From positions 1 through 64,000 of the forward strand of contig NZ_AUMN01000012.1 of NCBI RefSeq assembly GCF_000430705.1: a stretch of DNA of 64,000 bases, written 5' to 3'. Shown here piece after piece: positions 55,823 through 64,000 of this stretch. The notes under the pieces were generated by a model. The model saw only the letters and a program-made list of their open reading frames with translations, made no database searches and was not told the origin of the DNA. The translations under genes were made by a program, and so were the position numbers. This stretch comes from Arthrobacter castelli DSM 16402. Its GTDB lineage: Bacteria; Actinomycetota; Actinomycetes; Actinomycetales; Micrococcaceae. The stretch's first letter is position 1. Each line of letters begins with the position of its first letter.

Positions 55823-56402
55823 GCCGACACTGACACCAGGGCCACTTCGAGGCTGGTCAAAACGTTAGCGTCGAATACTTCACTTCTTCACAAGCCCAAA
55901 TTCGGCACCGCGGGATCAGGAAACATCTGCGGCCGACAATCACGGTCACCGCCCGATAGGGGAACCCTCACCGGTCACACCCCATCCTGACCTGCGGCGA
56001 TGCAGCTCCGGGTTTTGACCAATGCCGTATAGGCGGTCCGGACCCTTGTCCGGTGACGCGGGCCCTATACGACACACCCTCTGCGACACCACAGATGTCG
56101 GTCGTACCCACGTTCCCGTGCCATCCCGGCCCCGCCGATAACGGAACGAGTCTGCGTTAATCAATGTGCAAATACTCAATAGGGTGCATCCTTATACAGT
56201 CCACTCCACGCTAACCAGTACGTTCCCTTGGATCGCGAAATACGAAGAGATCACACCGAGGTCATGAAACGCTGTGATCACGAACGGGCGGACCCTACAG
56301 TGCCAAAGAAACAGACGAGGTAGTGCCCTTATTGCCGCCGCCGTCCGGTCGTCAATGATGTCCGGTCGGCGGGCAGGACCATGGGCGCAACTTCGATCTG
56401 TG
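55823..56402. other. Intergenic junction, dyads but no gene
   Basis: About 580 bases between ald and backbone block C. CGTATAGG (56026-56033) and CCTATACG (56064-56071) form an inverted repeat around a GC-rich core with a GGTCCGG/CCGG hairpin. A 77-codon minus frame (55946-56179) looks unlike a real protein. Possibly a decayed element end. Confidence 0.35.
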
Positions 56403-56445
56403 GGTGACCGGGGTTCAACCGGTCACCGGGGGAAGGATGGAAAGA
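56403..56445 (+). promoter_or_regulatory. Leader stem-loop/GAAAGA element, copy F
   Basis: Perfect 9-bp stem GGTGACCGG/CCGGTCACC (56403-56411 and 56419-56427, loop of 7), exactly 12 purine-rich bases, then GAAAGA at 56440-56445; 63 bases before the gene at 56491. The stem sequence differs from copies A-E while the architecture is kept. Confidence 0.6.
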
Positions 56446-56490
56446 ACATATACAGTCACACTGACGGCTACGCCACGAAAGGAGAGCTCA

Positions 56491-56994
56491 ATGTCTGTTA
56501 TCAGCCCGTGCGAATACGTCGGCGGCAACCTGATCAATCCGCCCATGGAGCCGTGGCTGGCGGCCAGTCACCGTCTGACCACCAAAGGCGGGAAATTCTT
56601 CCCCACCTTTGACATCGGCTATTACCACATCTTCGAGATCAATGTTCAAACACCCTCGTACGATCGCACTGAGCGCGAAATAACGCGCAAGCTGGGCCGG
56701 TTCTACAAGAAGATGAACATGATCGAAGGGTTCCGCACCCTTAAGACCAGGATCGTCAACGAGTACATCCCCATCAATCACAACTTCAGTATGGTTCATA
56801 AGATCACCTATGTGATTGAGAAGACCGGCACCGGCAACCAGAACCCCGACTGCCCGTATCCGCAATACCCGGATGACATGCGGCGGCTGACGTTTGCCCC
56901 GGAGACCGCCGAGGTGTTGAAAAACGAACCGACGCTGAAATCCAGAGGCCCGATGGTCCGTATCCCGGACAACCACAGGACGTTCGGATACTGA
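56491..56994 (+). CDS. Unknown protein (167 aa)
   Basis: ATG at 56491 behind AAAGGAGAG; the frame upstream contains the leader element. Rich in aromatic residues (FFPTFDIGYYHIFEINVQ) with a basic helix (EREITRKLGRFYKKMNMIEG). No family recognised. Followed by a terminator, so a single-gene transcript. Confidence 0.65.
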   Translation: MSVISPCEYVGGNLINPPMEPWLAASHRLTTKGGKFFPTFDIGYYHIFEINVQTPSYDRTEREITRKLGRFYKKMNMIEGFRTLKTRIVNEYIPINHNFSMVHKITYVIEKTGTGNQNPDCPYPQYPDDMRRLTFAPETAEVLKNEPTLKSRGPMVRIPDNHRTFGY

Positions 56995-57028
56995 CGTGGT
57001 CCGGCTCGTCGGGAGCCAAAGACGCAAA

Positions 57029-57073
57029 AAGGCCGGAGAGCTTCCCTTCCCATGGGGATAACTCTCCGGCCTT
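57029..57073. terminator. Terminator after the 167-aa gene
   Basis: AAGGCCGGAGAG/CTCTCCGGCCTT at 57029-57040 and 57062-57073 with an A-run before and TTCCTGTT after. Confidence 0.8.
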
Positions 57074-57138
57074 CCTGTTACTTCACACGCTCATTCAAAT
57101 ACGGGACACGTGACAACGACAAGTCACCTATCACCTAG

Positions 57139-57153
57139 CCGATAGACTATCGG
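57139..57153. promoter_or_regulatory. 15-bp palindrome before a membrane-protein gene
   Basis: CCGATAG-A-CTATCGG at 57139-57153, about 75 bases before the start at 57229; an operator-like site. Confidence 0.4.
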
Positions 57154-57228
57154 AGTCCGGGTCTCAATGCAAGCATCAAAACAACCACCAATGATCATCC
57201 GAGACGAGACGGACAAGGAGGACAAACC

Positions 57229-57753
57229 ATGCACGACAACGACACTGATCATGATCGAAACGCCCGCGACCAGGGCGTGGCCGATGCCCGGCAGATGGCC
57301 GACGGCGCGGCCCGGTTCGCCTCCGGTGCCCGGGGCTACATCAACCACCGCCTCATCCCGGCGGCCGCCGCAGGCACTAAACGGCTAAGCGCCGAAGCCG
57401 CCACACGCACGAGCAACGCCGGGGGAGTGCGGGCACTGGCACGGAACCTGGCACCATGGGCCATCGTCGCCGCAGCGATCGTCGCGGCCATCTCGCTGTT
57501 CATGCCCGTGGCCTCAATGGGCGGGTTGAGTATCAGCTACATGAGCATGCCCAGCCCGGAAGGGCCGATACAGCTGATCCTGCTGCTGGCAACCATCGCC
57601 GTGACCGGATTCAACGTCAAATCCGGCCGCACGCGCACATGGTCACGCATCGCCTCGGGCATCGCGGCCATCGTGCTGGGCCTGCCCGACACGTTCAGCG
57701 GATTGACCAACCTGTCCACGTTCGGATTCTCGTTCGCCAGCCTGTTCCTATAA
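57229..57753 (+). CDS. Unknown membrane protein (174 aa)
   Basis: Soluble N-terminal ~70 residues (Ala/Arg/Asp-rich), then about three hydrophobic helices (PWAIVAAAIVAAISLFMPVA and two more). ATG at 57229 behind AAGGAGGA. No family recognised. Confidence 0.6.
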   Translation: MHDNDTDHDRNARDQGVADARQMADGAARFASGARGYINHRLIPAAAAGTKRLSAEAATRTSNAGGVRALARNLAPWAIVAAAIVAAISLFMPVASMGGLSISYMSMPSPEGPIQLILLLATIAVTGFNVKSGRTRTWSRIASGIAAIVLGLPDTFSGLTNLSTFGFSFASLFL

Positions 57754-57860
57754 TGCTGCTCGTGTCAGGACTGGCCACGCTGGTCACCACAGGCCCGCGT
57801 TCGACACCGACTCGATTCTGAACAGACCACCCGAAGCCGGCCGATGCCGGCTAAATACAG

Positions 57861-57901
57861 CCGGCTCAAGAGAGAACAGACGTCATCTCTTGAGCCGGTT
57901 T
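57861..57901. terminator. Terminator after the membrane-protein gene
   Basis: CCGGCTCAAGAGA/TCTCTTGAGCCGG at 57861-57873 and 57886-57898, followed by TTTTC. Confidence 0.8.
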
Positions 57902-58119
57902 TCACATTTTAACCATCGTCGTCGCTGAGTCAGATAGTCCGTGCGGCGCTGCAGACGCTGCGCGGCGGCTCAAAAGCATACTCGAGCACCCAAACCCCGG
58001 TCACCGTGGTTTATGATGCTCACAGGACGAATGCAGGTTCTCACAAGCATTCCCCGGCTGACGCCACCGGCAAAGACGCCGGCTTCGCATCCGGCCCGGA
58101 TCGTGCAAATCCGACCCGC

Positions 58120-58600
58120 GTGTACCAATAGTGGTACACCCCTTCAAATGCGCTTTGACCTGCATAAACATCTGTATTACACAGGTGACGGAAGCATCCC
58201 GGTACCATATGGCTTTTCCAGTTGGTACAGGTGTTTGCCCTGGTCAGAACGGCTTTTAAGCCATTGGTACCAGTTGTACCAACTGTTCGCAGATCTTTGT
58301 AGGGAAATATAAGGCGAACACTTGATACGACAACACGCCGGGACATTGGTCGATTGACCAATAAGCTGATGACGTGTATATCGCACACGCACATGCGTAT
58401 TACTTTTATATTTTCAAATGGTACAACTGGTACAGAGATCCCAAAACCCGCTCTGACCAGGGCAAACGGGTGTACCACTTGAATTTTTAGAAATGGTACA
58501 TCTCTTCTGCGCGGCCCCCTTGAATATCCCTCAAAACCCGCTCTGACCAGGGCAAACGGGTGTACTTATCAGTGGTACACCTCTCCGGCATCTCCTACAG
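58120..58600. repeat. Iteron-like repeat array, candidate replication origin
   Basis: A stretch with no gene between 57902 and 58961. A 34-bp sequence is repeated exactly at 58442-58475 and 58532-58565; 16 bases of it recur inverted at 58233-58248. TGGTACA/TGTACCA sites recur, as dyads at 58120-58139 and 58264-58282, in tandem at 58419 and 58428, and singly elsewhere. AT-rich tracts lie between them. Position upstream of the primase-helicase makes this the best oriV candidate. Confidence 0.65.
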
Positions 58601-58961
58601 GGATATATGCTCAAACCCGTCCAGGGTCCCTCAGAACCTCCACCCGCCGGTGACATCGCCTCCCGTTGACCCGAACGACACCCGCGACAAACCCGGCGGC
58701 TCACGCCGCCGGCGGGTGCGGTGCTCGGCACTGACCGCCGTCATTGACCATCGACGCCGACCAGCCTCATCATCACAAGCGGCGAAATGGACCATTTGCA
58801 AAGACAGTTCGATAACGGAATCGATAGGACACTGATGTCTTTGCTGAATGAGCATTCAATGATCTAGGCTGAGAATCCACGGCCCATTCAAATACGAGAT
58901 CTAACCGGCTTCCCATATTCATGCTGGCCGGCCCTGGTATCGAGACGGGATACGACGACAC

Positions 58962-60809
58962 ATGACACTTGACAGCACCGACGACAGCACGACCGAAACA
59001 CCCGGCACGGCCGAGAACGCGGCCGGCGAAAAGGACCAGGACACCTTCCTGTCCGACATACTCGATTACTTCGAACAGCGTTCGTCGGCGGCAGCCTCGC
59101 CCAGCCTGATTACCGCCGAAGTCACCACCGGCTACCTTGCATGCCTTGATCCGGCCGACCCGCCTCACCCGCAGTTCCTTGAGCAACAACTGCTGGTCGC
59201 CCGCAACGCCGTCGTGGAGGCCGAAAACAAGAAGATCAGCCAGAGCAAGGACAAGCTGGCCCGGTCCAACTATCTGACCCTGTGGCAGGTCGCCCGGATC
59301 CTGCTGCGGCTGCATCGCGTCATCCGCATTGCACCCAACGCCAAAGACACCGACCGCGAATACGACCTGCTGGCCATGTATCGGCCCGGCGGGGCCGGCT
59401 ATGGCACGTACACCACCAGCGAAGACGACATCCGCACCACGGCCCGGCTTTACTACATGCTGCTGTCACTGAACGACTTCAAAGAGATCCAAGCCATCCT
59501 GCGCGAAGACAGCCCGCGCCGGCACCAGTGCGCACACCCGGACCTGATCGCCGCCAACAACGGCATCGTCTTCTACGGCACCAAAGACACTGACATCGAT
59601 TTCGTCGGGAAGACCTTCCACTTCAAAGCCAAGCAGGTCCACCCGTTCGACCCGGCGATCATCTTCTTGAGCAAGAATCACGTCGACTATGTCGCCGACG
59701 CGCCCAGGCAGGTCATCACCGACCCGGTCGATCACAGTGACTGGGAGGTCGTCGAATGGGTCAACAGCCTCTCCGACGACGAGGGCATGCCGGCGCTGCT
59801 GTGGGAGGTCATCGGCGCGATCATCCGGCCCCATGTGCCGTGGAACAAAACGGCCTGGTTCTACTCCGAGCAGGGCAACAACGGTAAAGGAACCCTGTGC
59901 GCACTGATGCGCAACCTGGTCGGACCCGGCGCTCACACTTCGATCCCGCTGTCCGACTTCGGCAAAGACTTCGCCCTGGAACCTTTGGTGCGGGCCAATG
60001 CGATCATCGTCGACGAAAACGACGTGGGCACCTTCATCGACAAGGCCGCCAACCTCAAGGCCGTCGTCACCGGCGACATCATTCAGATCAACCGCAAGTA
60101 CCGCACGCCGATCGCTTACCAGTTCTTCGGCTTCATGGTTCAATGCCTCAACGAATTCCCGCGCGTCAAAGACAAGTCGGAGTCGTTCTACCGCCGGCAG
60201 CTGTTCGTGCCGTTCACCAAGTGGTTCGGCGGCAACGAGAAGAAGCACATTAAGAACGACTACCTGCAGCGCAAGGCGGTGCTCGAGTATGTGTTCTGGT
60301 ATGCGATCAATGTCGCAGGTGCCGCTGAGCCGGGCAACTACTACCAGCTCTCCGAACCGGCCGCGACGAAGGCCGTGCTCAACGAATACAAGGAAGCCAA
60401 CGACCCGGTCCGGGGTTTCTGGGAGGAATTCAGCACCCGCTTCGCCTGGGACCTGCTGCCTTTTCCGTTCCTCTACGACCACTACAAGGTCTGGTTCGCC
60501 GCCGTCTCGCCGTCGGGGTCGCCGGTGTCCCGCCAGCAGTTCGTCACCGACCTCGTATCCATCATTGCCGAAGATGAGAACTGGCACTGCCCGGACAAGA
60601 ACCGCAAGATCCGTCCCGGCTCGATGATGAACACCCCCGAGCCGCTGATCGGTGAATACGAGCTCAAGAACTGGTACAGCCCGACCTATCAGGGTTCGGA
60701 TCCGTTGCGCCTGGCCCAGCCGATGCTCAAGGCCAACTACCGCGGCCTGCTGCGGGCCACACCGACCACTACCGCAGCACCGGCCGGCGACACTGACAAA
60801 CAGGATTGA
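58962..60809 (+). CDS. SF3/D5-type primase-helicase (plasmid replication)
   Basis: A 615-residue protein. The central SF3 helicase has Walker A SEQGNNGKGTLC (Lys309), Walker B-like ANAIIVDENDVG and motif C FFGFMVQCLNEFPRVKDKSE; it resembles phage/plasmid P4/D5-type replication helicases. The N-terminal part has no visible primase catalytic set. Residues about 494-571 form a C-terminal domain (WDLLPFPFLYDHY ... SRQQFV ... WHCPDKNRKIRPGSMM) that is duplicated in the DinD-like protein at 61090. Likely replication initiator/helicase for the adjacent repeats. Confidence 0.85.
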   Translation: MTLDSTDDSTTETPGTAENAAGEKDQDTFLSDILDYFEQRSSAAASPSLITAEVTTGYLACLDPADPPHPQFLEQQLLVARNAVVEAENKKISQSKDKLARSNYLTLWQVARILLRLHRVIRIAPNAKDTDREYDLLAMYRPGGAGYGTYTTSEDDIRTTARLYYMLLSLNDFKEIQAILREDSPRRHQCAHPDLIAANNGIVFYGTKDTDIDFVGKTFHFKAKQVHPFDPAIIFLSKNHVDYVADAPRQVITDPVDHSDWEVVEWVNSLSDDEGMPALLWEVIGAIIRPHVPWNKTAWFYSEQGNNGKGTLCALMRNLVGPGAHTSIPLSDFGKDFALEPLVRANAIIVDENDVGTFIDKAANLKAVVTGDIIQINRKYRTPIAYQFFGFMVQCLNEFPRVKDKSESFYRRQLFVPFTKWFGGNEKKHIKNDYLQRKAVLEYVFWYAINVAGAAEPGNYYQLSEPAATKAVLNEYKEANDPVRGFWEEFSTRFAWDLLPFPFLYDHYKVWFAAVSPSGSPVSRQQFVTDLVSIIAEDENWHCPDKNRKIRPGSMMNTPEPLIGEYELKNWYSPTYQGSDPLRLAQPMLKANYRGLLRATPTTTAAPAGDTDKQD

Positions 60810-60814
60810 TACAC

Positions 60815-61048
60815 ATGTCCCGCCTGAACACAGCCATCGATGCGCTCGTCGCCGCACTGTCGAGGGTGGCCGAAGAACACAGCAATCTCGCCTCCACCCA
60901 GGCCGAGGTCGTGCGCGAACAACGGGTCACCAACCTCATCGTCCGCTCACAGATCGAAACCGACCCGGGTGAAAAGGCCCGGCTGCTGCACGAGGCCCGA
61001 CAGCGCATGGACGCACCCAGCCGGCGCGCCGCACACCACTCGCTGTAG
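60815..61048 (+). CDS. Small helical unknown protein (77 aa)
   Basis: ATG at 60815 (TTG at 60806 overlaps the helicase stop). Predicted mostly helical, charged (MSRLNTAIDALVAALSRVAE). Coupled between helicase and DinD-like gene; no family recognised. Confidence 0.55.
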   Translation: MSRLNTAIDALVAALSRVAEEHSNLASTQAEVVREQRVTNLIVRSQIETDPGEKARLLHEARQRMDAPSRRAAHHSL

Positions 61049-61089
61049 AGCCGCACGCCACCACCACCATCACGAAAGGACACGAGGCC

Positions 61090-62049
61090 ATGCCCGCCAC
61101 CATAGAGGCGACCCACCCTGTAACCGAGTCGAGCCACTCGAGAACTGACCATGAACCCGGCTCGCCCTTCGATGCCATCCGGAACATCCGCAATGACGGC
61201 AGCGAATACTGGTCGGCCCGCGACCTGATGCCGCTGCTGGGCTACGACTCCTGGCGTCGGTTCACCGATGTCATTGACCGTGCACAGGCAGCAGCCCGAA
61301 ACCAGGGATTCACCGCCGGAAATCTTTTCCTTGACACTGCCGTCAAAAATTCAGATCAACATGGTACAAACCGCGGCCGTCCGGCTAACAACGTCGAATT
61401 GACACGCTTCGCCGCCTATCTGGTGGCCATGAACGGCGACCCACGTAAATCGCAGATTGCCGCCGCACAGGCATATTTCGCCATCCGTACCCGTCAGGCC
61501 GAAGCCGGCCAACACCAACACCAACACCAAGGCCCCGCGCCAGCAGATGACATCAGCGCCGAGCGCAAGCTGGCGTTGCTTGAAGCCGCCGTGGGCATCC
61601 TGGGCCGTGAACAGATCCGTCAGCGTACGGCCCGGTTCCTGGACGAGACGGTCGGCGTGCCGGAGCCGGCCACAGACCCGGCGCACAGAGCCAAGCATCG
61701 CGGCACAGGCATCAGAAATCTCGAGCAGTTCTGGCACATGGCCCGCCATCGCCTGGTGTGGGATCTCGTGCCATTCGCGTTCCTGTGGCAGCTGTATCAA
61801 ACCTGGTGTGCACAGACAGAGCCTGAAGCGGTCTTGCTGTCGCGCCAACAATTCGTCAGCGGCCTCGTCACCCTCGTGGGCGAAGACGGCGAATGGCACT
61901 GCCCGGATAAAAGACGCAAGATGCGGCCGCGGTCGATGATGGATGCGCCAGAGCCGCTGATCGCCGAATACGGGCTCAACGATCCACGGGATCGAATCAA
62001 CCACCGGGGCCTGCTGAGAAGCCGGTCCTTGTCGCGAACCGGCGATTAA
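61090..62049 (+). CDS. DinD/BRO-like protein fused to a D5 C-terminal domain
   Basis: A 319-residue protein. Residues about 25-140 match the DinD/BRO type: EYWSARDLMPLLGYDSWRRF, the region ending NRGRPANNVELTRFAAYLVA and MNGDPRKSQIAAAQAYFA. A HQHQHQ linker follows near 142-148. Residues about 222-297 (WDLVPFAFLWQLY ... SRQQFV ... WHCPDKRRKMRPRSMM) repeat the helicase's C-terminal domain. ATG at 61090 behind GAAAGGA. Chromosomal DinD acts against RecA filaments; here a role in replication control is inferred. Confidence 0.78.
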   Translation: MPATIEATHPVTESSHSRTDHEPGSPFDAIRNIRNDGSEYWSARDLMPLLGYDSWRRFTDVIDRAQAAARNQGFTAGNLFLDTAVKNSDQHGTNRGRPANNVELTRFAAYLVAMNGDPRKSQIAAAQAYFAIRTRQAEAGQHQHQHQGPAPADDISAERKLALLEAAVGILGREQIRQRTARFLDETVGVPEPATDPAHRAKHRGTGIRNLEQFWHMARHRLVWDLVPFAFLWQLYQTWCAQTEPEAVLLSRQQFVSGLVTLVGEDGEWHCPDKRRKMRPRSMMDAPEPLIAEYGLNDPRDRINHRGLLRSRSLSRTGD

Positions 62050-62100
62050 ACCGAACCATTCAATGACCGGCACTGACCACCACAATGAAAAGGGATCCCC

Positions 62101-64000
62101 ATGACTGCCGGAAGGACACCTGTCACTGCCGATACGGCTTCGTTTACTTTCTACGACATCGAGTCGCTGTCCAACGTTTTCAGCCTTGTGGCCTATACAC
62201 CGCGGCCCGCAAGTCACCCCGATCTGCTCGAAGTATTCTTCCTCGTCGACGACGAGCAGCTTTGCGCGAGCTTCGACCACGATGCGCTCACGGCGGCGAT
62301 CACCGATGGCAACCCCGGCCTGCCGGCGGTGCATGTCACAGCACACGATCTGCGCACCGTCGAGGGCAATCTGGCCCTGGCGCAGCTGATGGGTCTTTGT
62401 GACGCCGACCAGGTGTGCAACACCGGTCAAAAATCTTCCTACCCGCTCGATCTGCGCCCTGTCTGCGACACCGACAATGATTACAACCCGATGCACCACC
62501 CTTATCTGGCCGGGTACAACTCGCTGAACTACGACACCACGATGCTGGCGCTGTATCTGTCCGAGGTGTTCTCGGACGTGGCCGACCATAGGCAGAATCT
62601 GGACAACGCCCGGGTGCAGGAAGAATATGCCCGCACTCCCGAAGACCAGGCCCACACCCAGGCGCTGGTCAAAGATGTCCTCAACCGCAAACCAGTGTTC
62701 AAGCCGGTCTCGGCAGCGACACTGCGCGGTTACAACGACCAGCTGTTCAGCTCCGAGCACATCGACTACATGCCCGGCTACAACCAGTGGGACTCGCAAG
62801 CGGCCAGGATCCGCCGTGCGATGCTTCATTCGGGCCGGCATCTCGATATCGCCCGGCTCAACGAGCTGCAGCACAAGGTCGCGCTCAAGCGCCTGCTGGG
62901 CATGCTGGGCCGGCAGATCAAAGAATCCGACAAGCTCGGCCACGGCTCAGTGGTCACCACCACCGGCGAGCTCTATGAACTGCTGGCCTACAACGTCTCG
63001 GACTGCCTGGGCCTGGCCCAGCTGTTTGAACATCCGGTCTATTCGTCGGCCTTCGACCTGAAAGCCGGTCTGCTTCAGCAGTATGCGGAGACGGTGTACA
63101 CCAAGTCCGGCACTGTGCGCATGGACCGGTTGACCATCGATGCCTCGTCGGCGAAGTTCGTGGGCCGCATTCTCGCCCCGTACACACCCCTGAACGACAT
63201 TGAAACCGTCTCGTTCGACTACCCGGCCAAAGAAGTGGCCGACGAACGCGGTATCGCCCAGGTCAATGTCCTCGACGAATGCGTCCACTTCTTCGACACG
63301 CAGGTCGCCCCCGACCGGGCGACCAACACGGAACAAGCAGCCGCCTGGGCGCAGTTCATGGACGTGGTGACGTACTATCGCCGGATCGAAGGTGAAAATT
63401 TCAACGATTCCGACCAATACAACAAGCGTTTCAAGCGGTCGGCCGCCTCGCTCAAAGAGATCGCCAAGACGCCGAACAACATACCGTACTTCCGCCCCGA
63501 CGGCACGGCCTCGTCATGCTTCGCGACCTTCTCCACCGGCGGGATTCACGGTGCCGAGGCCGATAAGAACGCCTTCACCCGTGACCGCATCGCCCACGTG
63601 CAGGCCGACACCATGCTGCACCGGGCCAAAACCCTGATCCCGGAGGCGGTGGAGTTCGTCGCCGAGGCCAAGCGCCAGCATGCACAGCTGTCACTGCCCG
63701 ACGGCTCATACGTCGACAAGCGCGATGTGCTGCTGGGCTCGGATCCGGCGAAAGTCAAATACCGCAAGCCGAAGAAAGGTGACCCGGCCCAGACCGACCA
63801 ACTCGCCCGCGCACAACAGCAGGTCCCCGATCCGGCCGATCTGCTGGCCACCCAGCGTCCGGAAGCCGCGGCGCTGCATGTGTCCATGTCCGACGGCAGC
63901 GTTCTTCACGGCAAGACTGTGCTGGCCACGACATCGGCGGCCGCCGCGACCTACCGCGACGAACCCGCCAAAAAGGCTCCGAGCCTGTTCACCGCCAAGG
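62101..64000 (+). CDS. B-family-type DNA polymerase, N-terminal part (cut by window end)
   Basis: ATG at 62101 opens a frame that is uninterrupted to the window end (633 codons). Exonuclease motifs are visible: ExoI FTFYDIESL (Asp19, Glu21), ExoII GYNSLNYDTTML (Asn140, Asp145) and ExoIII YNVSDCLGL (Tyr297, Asp301). FSTGGIHGAEAD follows near residue 478. The polymerase palm motifs lie mostly outside. AAAAGGGATC precedes the start. Assignment to family B is by the exonuclease layout; the polymerase activity itself is inferred. Confidence 0.7.
   Translation, partial: MTAGRTPVTADTASFTFYDIESLSNVFSLVAYTPRPASHPDLLEVFFLVDDEQLCASFDHDALTAAITDGNPGLPAVHVTAHDLRTVEGNLALAQLMGLCDADQVCNTGQKSSYPLDLRPVCDTDNDYNPMHHPYLAGYNSLNYDTTMLALYLSEVFSDVADHRQNLDNARVQEEYARTPEDQAHTQALVKDVLNRKPVFKPVSAATLRGYNDQLFSSEHIDYMPGYNQWDSQAARIRRAMLHSGRHLDIARLNELQHKVALKRLLGMLGRQIKESDKLGHGSVVTTTGELYELLAYNVSDCLGLAQLFEHPVYSSAFDLKAGLLQQYAETVYTKSGTVRMDRLTIDASSAKFVGRILAPYTPLNDIETVSFDYPAKEVADERGIAQVNVLDECVHFFDTQVAPDRATNTEQAAAWAQFMDVVTYYRRIEGENFNDSDQYNKRFKRSAASLKEIAKTPNNIPYFRPDGTASSCFATFSTGGIHGAEADKNAFTRDRIAHVQADTMLHRAKTLIPEAVEFVAEAKRQHAQLSLPDGSYVDKRDVLLGSDPAKVKYRKPKKGDPAQTDQLARAQQQVPDPADLLATQRPEAAALHVSMSDGSVLHGKTVLATTSAAAATYRDEPAKKAPSLFTAK

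Follow-up and report, generated by a model that had tools for sequence, protein, structure and literature searches.

A Bro-N protein with the Pox_D5 tail of a helicase family in a probable integrated conjugative element of Arthrobacter castelli

Introduction

Phages, satellites and large DNA viruses often encode proteins of the Bro network, most of which have no known binding target. Shuffling of Bro domains was reportedly described by Iyer et al. in 2002. Here we describe P0002, a protein of Arthrobacter castelli DSM 16402 in which a Bro-N head is joined to a C-terminal Pox_D5 domain, the domain that also ends the SF3 helicase P0001. Both are encoded in the window, i.e. the 64,000 nucleotides of DNA that were analysed, at the start of contig C12, which is 153.7 kb long in a genome of 4.59 Mb and 49 contigs; both belong to what is probably an integrated conjugative element. 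Since the tail is that of a helicase family and the helicase is encoded two genes upstream, a candidate target of P0002 can be named directly.

Heads like that of P0002 are found in the Bro-N/KilAC antirepressors gp39 of Mycobacterium phage phiT45-1 and gp67 of Gordonia phage Periwinkle (59.5% and 61.6% over the matched part), but both end in an ANT/KilAC tail where P0002 has Pox_D5. The genes of these antirepressors are located within ~3 kb of an immunity repressor gene, whereas the P0002 gene is located between a helicase and a polymerase gene. DinD of Escherichia coli has the Bro-N head in common with P0002 (44% identity in the head alignment) but its tail is not present in P0002. The D5-type SF3 helicases of the Streptomyces NBC_01454 plasmid and of Gordonia pGKT2 have a C-terminal domain homologous to that of P0002, which lacks their DUF5906/AAA+ core. 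A Bro-N head on another DNA-metabolism domain is found in the Oxyrrhis polinton-like virus OmPLV; this Bro-N/VRR-NUC fusion was reported as new in 2025 (PMC12721341). There, the partner is a VRR nuclease and the carrier a virus-like element of a eukaryote, whereas the partner in P0002 is a helicase tail. Proteins of the Bro network are described as swapping domains, and in PICI satellites a replication zone comes after a Bro zone (PMC10111431). Phi11 Gp07 combines a Bro-like head with a KilA tail, and its overexpression is reported to inhibit growth of E. coli (PMC5944126). A search of open-licence papers revealed no report of a Bro-N/Pox_D5 fusion. The combination was seen only once here; the swapping of domains in the Bro network was already known.

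Domain architecture of P0002 and its relation to the helicase

The two proteins and their parts are located in the window as follows.

61090..62049, plus strand: fusion protein P0002, 319 amino acids, with Bro-N head, helical middle segment and Pox_D5 tail (Pfam Bro-N 32.6 bits, Pox_D5 21.9 bits)
61159..61500, plus strand: Bro-N head, approximately residues 24-137 (42 heads of this type from viral contigs are 52-67% identical to it)
61501..61710, plus strand: middle segment with two predicted helices (model helices 157-170 and 173-187)
61711..62046, plus strand: predicted Pox_D5 winged-helix tail of P0002, residues 208-319 (BLASTP to helicase, profile match, structure model)
61837..61980, plus strand: predicted third helix and wing of the P0002 tail, LSRQQFV...EYGLN, residues 250-297 (31/48 identical to helicase)
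61075..61080, plus strand: AAAGGA, resembling a ribosome-binding site, 9 nucleotides 5' of the ATG of P0002 (read from the sequence)
58962..60809, plus strand: SF3 (D5/P4-type) helicase P0001, 615 amino acids, with DUF5906 core (residues 300-412; 62.8 bits) and Pox_D5 tail (27.0 bits)
60396..60806, plus strand: C-terminal Pox_D5 domain of the helicase, residues 479-615 (profile match over model positions 1-131; alignments)

The head of P0002 passed the cut-off of Bro-N PF02498 (32.6 versus 25.6 bits) and the tail barely passed that of Pox_D5 PF03288 (21.9 versus 21.4 bits). ANT/KilAC (PF03374) and the AAA+ core DUF5906 were not matched in P0002 up to E 0.1. Among the matches listed, the best for the head are actinophage proteins, mostly annotated as antirepressor. 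An earlier note on this DNA had named P0002 DinD-like, and the Bro head behind this name is real; however, the NCBIfam DinD model (PRK11525) covers residues 21-145 only and scores 127.8 bits at a cut-off of 242. Judged by its sequence, P0002 is not a true DinD but resembles it in the head alone. Bro-N was matched once in the whole genome (E up to 0.1), the Pox_D5 tail profile twice (E up to 1). For the middle segment no convincing homologue and no viral match was found, and a TetR-like match (L212, L213) was judged to be due to chance, coming from a tiny database and having no support from Pfam. The P0002 gene is co-directional with the replication gene block and preceded by the ribosome-binding-like site. 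P0002 reads as a regulator of the Bro network in which the Pox_D5 tail of a helicase family appears to have taken the place of the usual C-terminal module, which is KilAC/ANT in the majority of the closest relatives.

The helicase P0001 matched TIGR01613 with 152.8 bits (cut-off 108.7) and is 70% identical over 92% to a Streptomyces plasmid helicase. BLASTP aligned its residues 486-599 with residues 214-311 of P0002 (52 of 114 columns identical, i.e. 46%; 66 positive; E 6e-32) and Pfam found Pox_D5 in both proteins independently, which confirms what the earlier note had seen, the same C-terminal domain on two proteins encoded two genes apart. The motifs SRQQFV, WHCPDK, RP-x-SMM and PEPLI-x-EY are indeed in register in both tails, but the stretch is longer than the ranges given for it before (about 494-571 in the helicase and about 222-297 in P0002): it starts at approximately residue 479 of the helicase (60396) and residue 208 of P0002 (61711), extends nearly to the ends of both proteins and has a gap of 16 columns in P0002 relative to the helicase. 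The DNA of the two tails is 77% identical over 142 bp and 62% over 102 aligned codons. In the wing, DKNRKIRPGS of the helicase corresponds to DKRRKMRPRS of P0002, which therefore has two more arginines.

Predicted structure of the tail

The tail of P0002, modelled alone with 42 relatives, gave a predicted local distance difference test (pLDDT) of 92.1 and a predicted template modelling score of 0.85. The model is a predicted winged helix, a fold that the Z values alone do not settle: the top rows of the structural comparison, all with Z below 8, were RFX5 (Z 6.5, 75 residues, 3.6 A) and ORC/Cdc6 entries (Z 5-6, the best of them 6.0), together with a cullin WHB domain at Z 5.8, an entry of SMC5/6 at Z 5.7 and regulators of the Fur/Zur type at Z 4.4-5.5. 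In the structure of vaccinia D5, which has the same Pfam domain, the best match of the C-terminal domain was the winged helix of RFX1, described as not necessarily significant (PMC9611036). A PDB chain was not found by sequence with the profile of the tails. There is no sign of unrelated folds in the two tails, a doubt that had been raised before; they are 46% identical and the model was made of the P0002 tail only. The head was modelled with pLDDT 94-98 over residues 31-80 and 101-130 and approximately 71 over residues 81-100, and had no PDB match under E 0.9. Weak BFVD matches, to be taken as a lead only, were two Bro-N proteins and the D5 helicase of Bodo saltans virus (E 0.65, 5.3 and 0.69). 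Mixed alignments of heads and tails, in which tails aligned with the head, were used for no fold.

Constraint on the tail

Over 102 codons the tails of P0002 and P0001 differ with a proportion of synonymous differences (pS) of 0.61 and of nonsynonymous differences (pN) of 0.31. Of the 18 columns with a conservation of 90% or more among helicases, P0002 keeps 16, compared to 39 of 84 other columns. The identity to P0001 is 14/39 in helices 1-2 and 31/48 in the part from helix 3 through the wing region. Relative to P0001, the difference between the first and the second half of the tail is 0.29 in P0002 and at most 0.06 among 57 helicases. With a free split point, none of 938 helicase pairs at 40-65% identity reached the 0.31 of P0002. 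Measured against 18 actinobacterial helicases picked from the tree, P0002 again had the highest median difference (0.23; the next 0.12), and the unevenness was also present against Actinomadura and Nocardiopsis helicases. Because the half with the third helix and the wing is better retained than helices 1-2, also against these unlinked helicases, the comparison of sequences suggests that this half is a kept surface rather than a relic, which would fit a binding target shared by both tails. Part of the constraint seen in pN/pS and in the columns may predate the fusion.

Search for other carriers of the tail

The tail profile led to 51 loci on genome contigs, in a scan that used one peptide pattern, and to 6 viral loci. 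A Walker-A-like motif was present in 54 of the 57 frames; the other three were a whole helicase (L028) and two broken helicases (L043 and L072), the short tail-bearing frames of which were considered as Bro fusions and rejected. In L043 (2611-4411; Acidipropionibacterium jensenii) a helicase gene of the P0001 family is split into two overlapping frames. A scan of the loci found by helicase or tail match with the head profile revealed no Bro-N gene except the window's own.

Viral Bro-N proteins were scanned in two sets, comprising the best 80 of 438 and the best 80 of 485 relatives, and tail types were assigned by home-made profiles (four phage tails; two sequences). None of the 80 loci with the nearest heads had a Pox_D5 tail (67 ANT-like, 13 other) and neither had any of the second 80 with DinD-type heads (81 head open reading frames (ORFs); 72 DinD-type tails, 9 other). 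These 161 proteins, 134 of them distinct and forming 112 clusters at 90%, speak against the tail being ubiquitous in unrelated DinD proteins; as a control, the tail profile recovered P0002 itself. Furthermore, P0002 was used to search three partly overlapping samples, of 59, 394 and 396 genomes, two of these scans scoring at most five candidates per genome; heads and tails were found, but in no case joined in one frame outside the window's genome. Pox_D5 was matched 31 times in 26 of 396 genomes, including the two matches in the window; six loci were read and the others judged by frame length.

A second Pox_D5 tail outside a helicase was found in genome G213, which belongs to the same family as the host (L021:10726-11292, minus strand). 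This protein of 188 amino acids has the tail (24.0 bits) behind a different N-terminus, and unlike P0002 it has no Bro-N match. Its gene is located close to Fic and zeta-toxin-like genes, and no full helicase of the P0001 kind was present in the surrounding 60 kb examined. The orphan tail keeps 11 of the 18 conserved columns and 21 of 74 others. On the satellite-like Streptococcus dysgalactiae plasmid pFGCSD4 (L122, 15 kb, with integrase and mutL), a distant P4-type primase/helicase is encoded ~5.6 kb from dinD, but this DinD has an ordinary tail that is not common to its helicase.

Origin of the fusion

In a tree of 29 tails, P0002 had a long branch (1.53) and grouped, though not firmly, with actinobacterial helicases, one of which is P0001; a tree of 63 tails put it (branch 1.3) in a group of nine with P0001 that lacks internal resolution. 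Forcing P0002 to be the sister of P0001 cost 4.2 log units, with a p value of 0.301 in the approximately unbiased (AU) test. The G + C content at third codon positions (GC3) is 0.71 in P0002 (head 0.66, tail 0.74), compared to 0.84 in the helicase, 0.80 in the small ORF between the two genes and 0.80 in the part of the polymerase gene in the window. Since head and tail are both below helicase and polymerase, this difference, given without a significance test, hints that the P0002 gene came in ready-made as a fusion. The earlier note had regarded the tail as copied from the helicase next door. As stated, this is not supported, given the AU value, the lack of a firm place in the tree and the hint from GC3; on whether the tail was copied from the helicase next to it, the tail sequences point neither way. 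Likewise, a recent duplication in place is compatible with the data but not supported by tree or GC3. Gene conversion between the two tails, prompted by the 77% identity over 142 bp, was set aside and is not needed, because comparison with the unlinked Nocardiopsis and Actinomadura helicases favours the half with helix 3 and wing almost as much.

Possible function of P0002

We propose that P0002 is a Bro regulator of the probable integrated conjugative element which carries the tail of the element's own helicase family and acts at the site of the helicase, an account that we prefer but rate at somewhat under an even chance. It agrees with the domain common to both proteins, the predicted winged helix, the conserved columns and the third-helix/wing half kept in the tail, the two additional arginines of the wing and the place of the gene in the replication block. 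The tail would direct P0002 to the DNA site used by the helicase tail, probably at the element's putative origin. Bound there without an ATPase motor, P0002 would not unwind DNA but could compete with loading of the helicase or mark the region, and could thereby hold back or time helicase loading as a brake or switch. Additionally or instead, it might tune transcription of the surrounding replication genes, while the Bro head would bind DNA or a protein partner. A role as replication brake is plausible. The more far-reaching proposal, that the element built a trans-acting control of replication by putting the helicase's putative origin-reading winged helix on a Bro regulator, with both proteins competing for one site, we consider rather unlikely.

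Several observations weigh against an action at the helicase site. The Bro-N/Pox_D5 fusion is a single instance. The structural scores are modest, with unrelated winged helices close behind the RFX5 and ORC rows; Foldseek of the tail model against the PDB gave no strong match (best E 2.6), and the D5 article calls the RFX1 match weak, with helix orientation not conserved (PMC9611036). The tail halves were first chosen after the alignment was seen, and with a free split point 2 of all 1709 pairs reached at least 0.30, both of them Streptomyces-Kribbella pairs with a near-identical Kribbella row. Synonymous sites are near saturation and pS, too, is lower in the second half, including several helicase-helicase pairs, so part of the uneven pattern may be constraint at the codon level. 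Finally, antirepressor-type heads may act by protein contact, and competition for DNA is therefore not the sole route.

The tail could also be the new DNA-binding module of an antirepressor-type transcription regulator that has its own target and no link to the helicase, acquired in a generic domain swap. This is possible though not probable, and a change of DNA specificity without a helicase link is nearly as likely as a shared site. It agrees with the domain swapping reported for the Bro network (PMC10111431), the variation of tails among those 80 viral proteins that have the closest heads (67 ANT-like, 13 other), the long branch of the P0002 tail (1.3 and 1.53) and the hint from GC3 of arrival as a unit, but less with the location of P0002 among the replication genes of an element that has the same domain on its helicase, with the absence of the tail from all sampled Bro-N proteins elsewhere and with the retention of helix 3 and wing. 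An improbable alternative is a decoy or poison subunit, the tail of which soaks up an inhibitor of the helicase (from a satellite, a rival element or the host) or which enters the helicase ring and jams it. The same domain is present on both proteins of one element, and satellites are known to encode proteins directed at phage replication proteins; however, a candidate inhibitor was not identified, P0002 has no ring-forming AAA+ core, and the part that diverged is helices 1-2, possibly the packing face. That P0002 is a functionless chance chimera on its way to decay is very improbable: its single occurrence, the 16-column gap and the long branch would be explained, but the gene has an open frame of 319 codons behind a ribosome-binding-like site, a confidently predicted tail fold and a well-kept Bro-N head, and pN is about half of pS with 16 of 18 conserved columns kept, a constraint that may partly predate the fusion.

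One pair of binding assays could address both the role of Pox_D5 in D5-type helicases and that of P0002. If P0002 does act as a brake, it would show how a conjugative element builds replication control by domain capture.

Gene order and the surrounding element

Two further features flank the P0002 gene.

60806..61048, plus strand: small conserved ORF, 80 amino acids, between the helicase and P0002 genes (11 of 24 related loci have a match of 48-72% identity behind the helicase)
62101..64000, plus strand: element DNA polymerase, first part of an ORF of 1088 amino acids that runs past the window (phrog_1252 DNA polymerase, 1.3e-9)

The small ORF matched no family of note in Pfam and profile searches, and the polymerase had no Pfam match. 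The gene order was compared in 24 of the helicase loci. In 20 of them, two of which (L023 and L034) are one place, the helicase is followed by a relative of the polymerase (34-69% identity), which was not seen in the stretch examined at the other 4; none of the 20 loci showing both genes has a Bro head between them. The same gene order without P0002 is present in a further genome (G1223), and on the Streptomyces plasmid the distance from the end of the annotated small gene to the polymerase gene is 66 bp. Because related loci keep the helicase-polymerase order without P0002, the P0002 gene looks like an insertion into a conserved block.

Judged from the reading frames, the mobile element is entered at approximately 56 kb of the window, and it continues beyond the window's end. 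It encodes, besides helicase and DNA polymerase, an SNF2 helicase, a type IV coupling protein, a MobL relaxase, a lysozyme/CHAP protein, UvrD-like and ClpB-like proteins and DprA; a tyrosine integrase at ~C12:131-132 kb scored only just above the cut-off. The region from ~56000 to 64000 of the window plus C12 to ~132 kb is probably an integrated conjugative element.

Other genes of the element

Beyond the window, the same element has an ORF of 1877 amino acids (G000:C12:104487-110117, minus strand; L020:6488-12118) with weak paired matches to both catalytic subunits of RNA polymerase, through Rpb2_6 (26.0 bits, cut-off 23.4) and Rpb1_2 (25.3 bits, at the cut-off). It contains the stretches GDKLSDLHGNKG and FDGDFDGD, which we take to resemble the active-site motifs of the beta and beta-prime subunits of RNA polymerase. 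The protein is probably an unannotated single-chain (beta plus beta-prime) RNA polymerase. Relatives were found on 13 plasmid records, all of them annotated as hypothetical; those in Streptomyces, Gordonia and Rhodococcus are 37-63% identical and those in Staphylococcus and Lactococcus ~25-28%. In the two plasmid records inspected, the gene adjoins that of a conjugative coupling protein. The literature searched contained nothing bearing on this RNA polymerase; an enzyme of this kind encoded by a conjugative element would merit separate study.

The SNF2 helicase (G000:C12:66855-69602; L018:8856-11603) has an insertion of ~370 residues (approximately 213-583) with a LAGLIDADG domain. The insertion is absent from all five relatives in which the gene was seen and is probably an intein.

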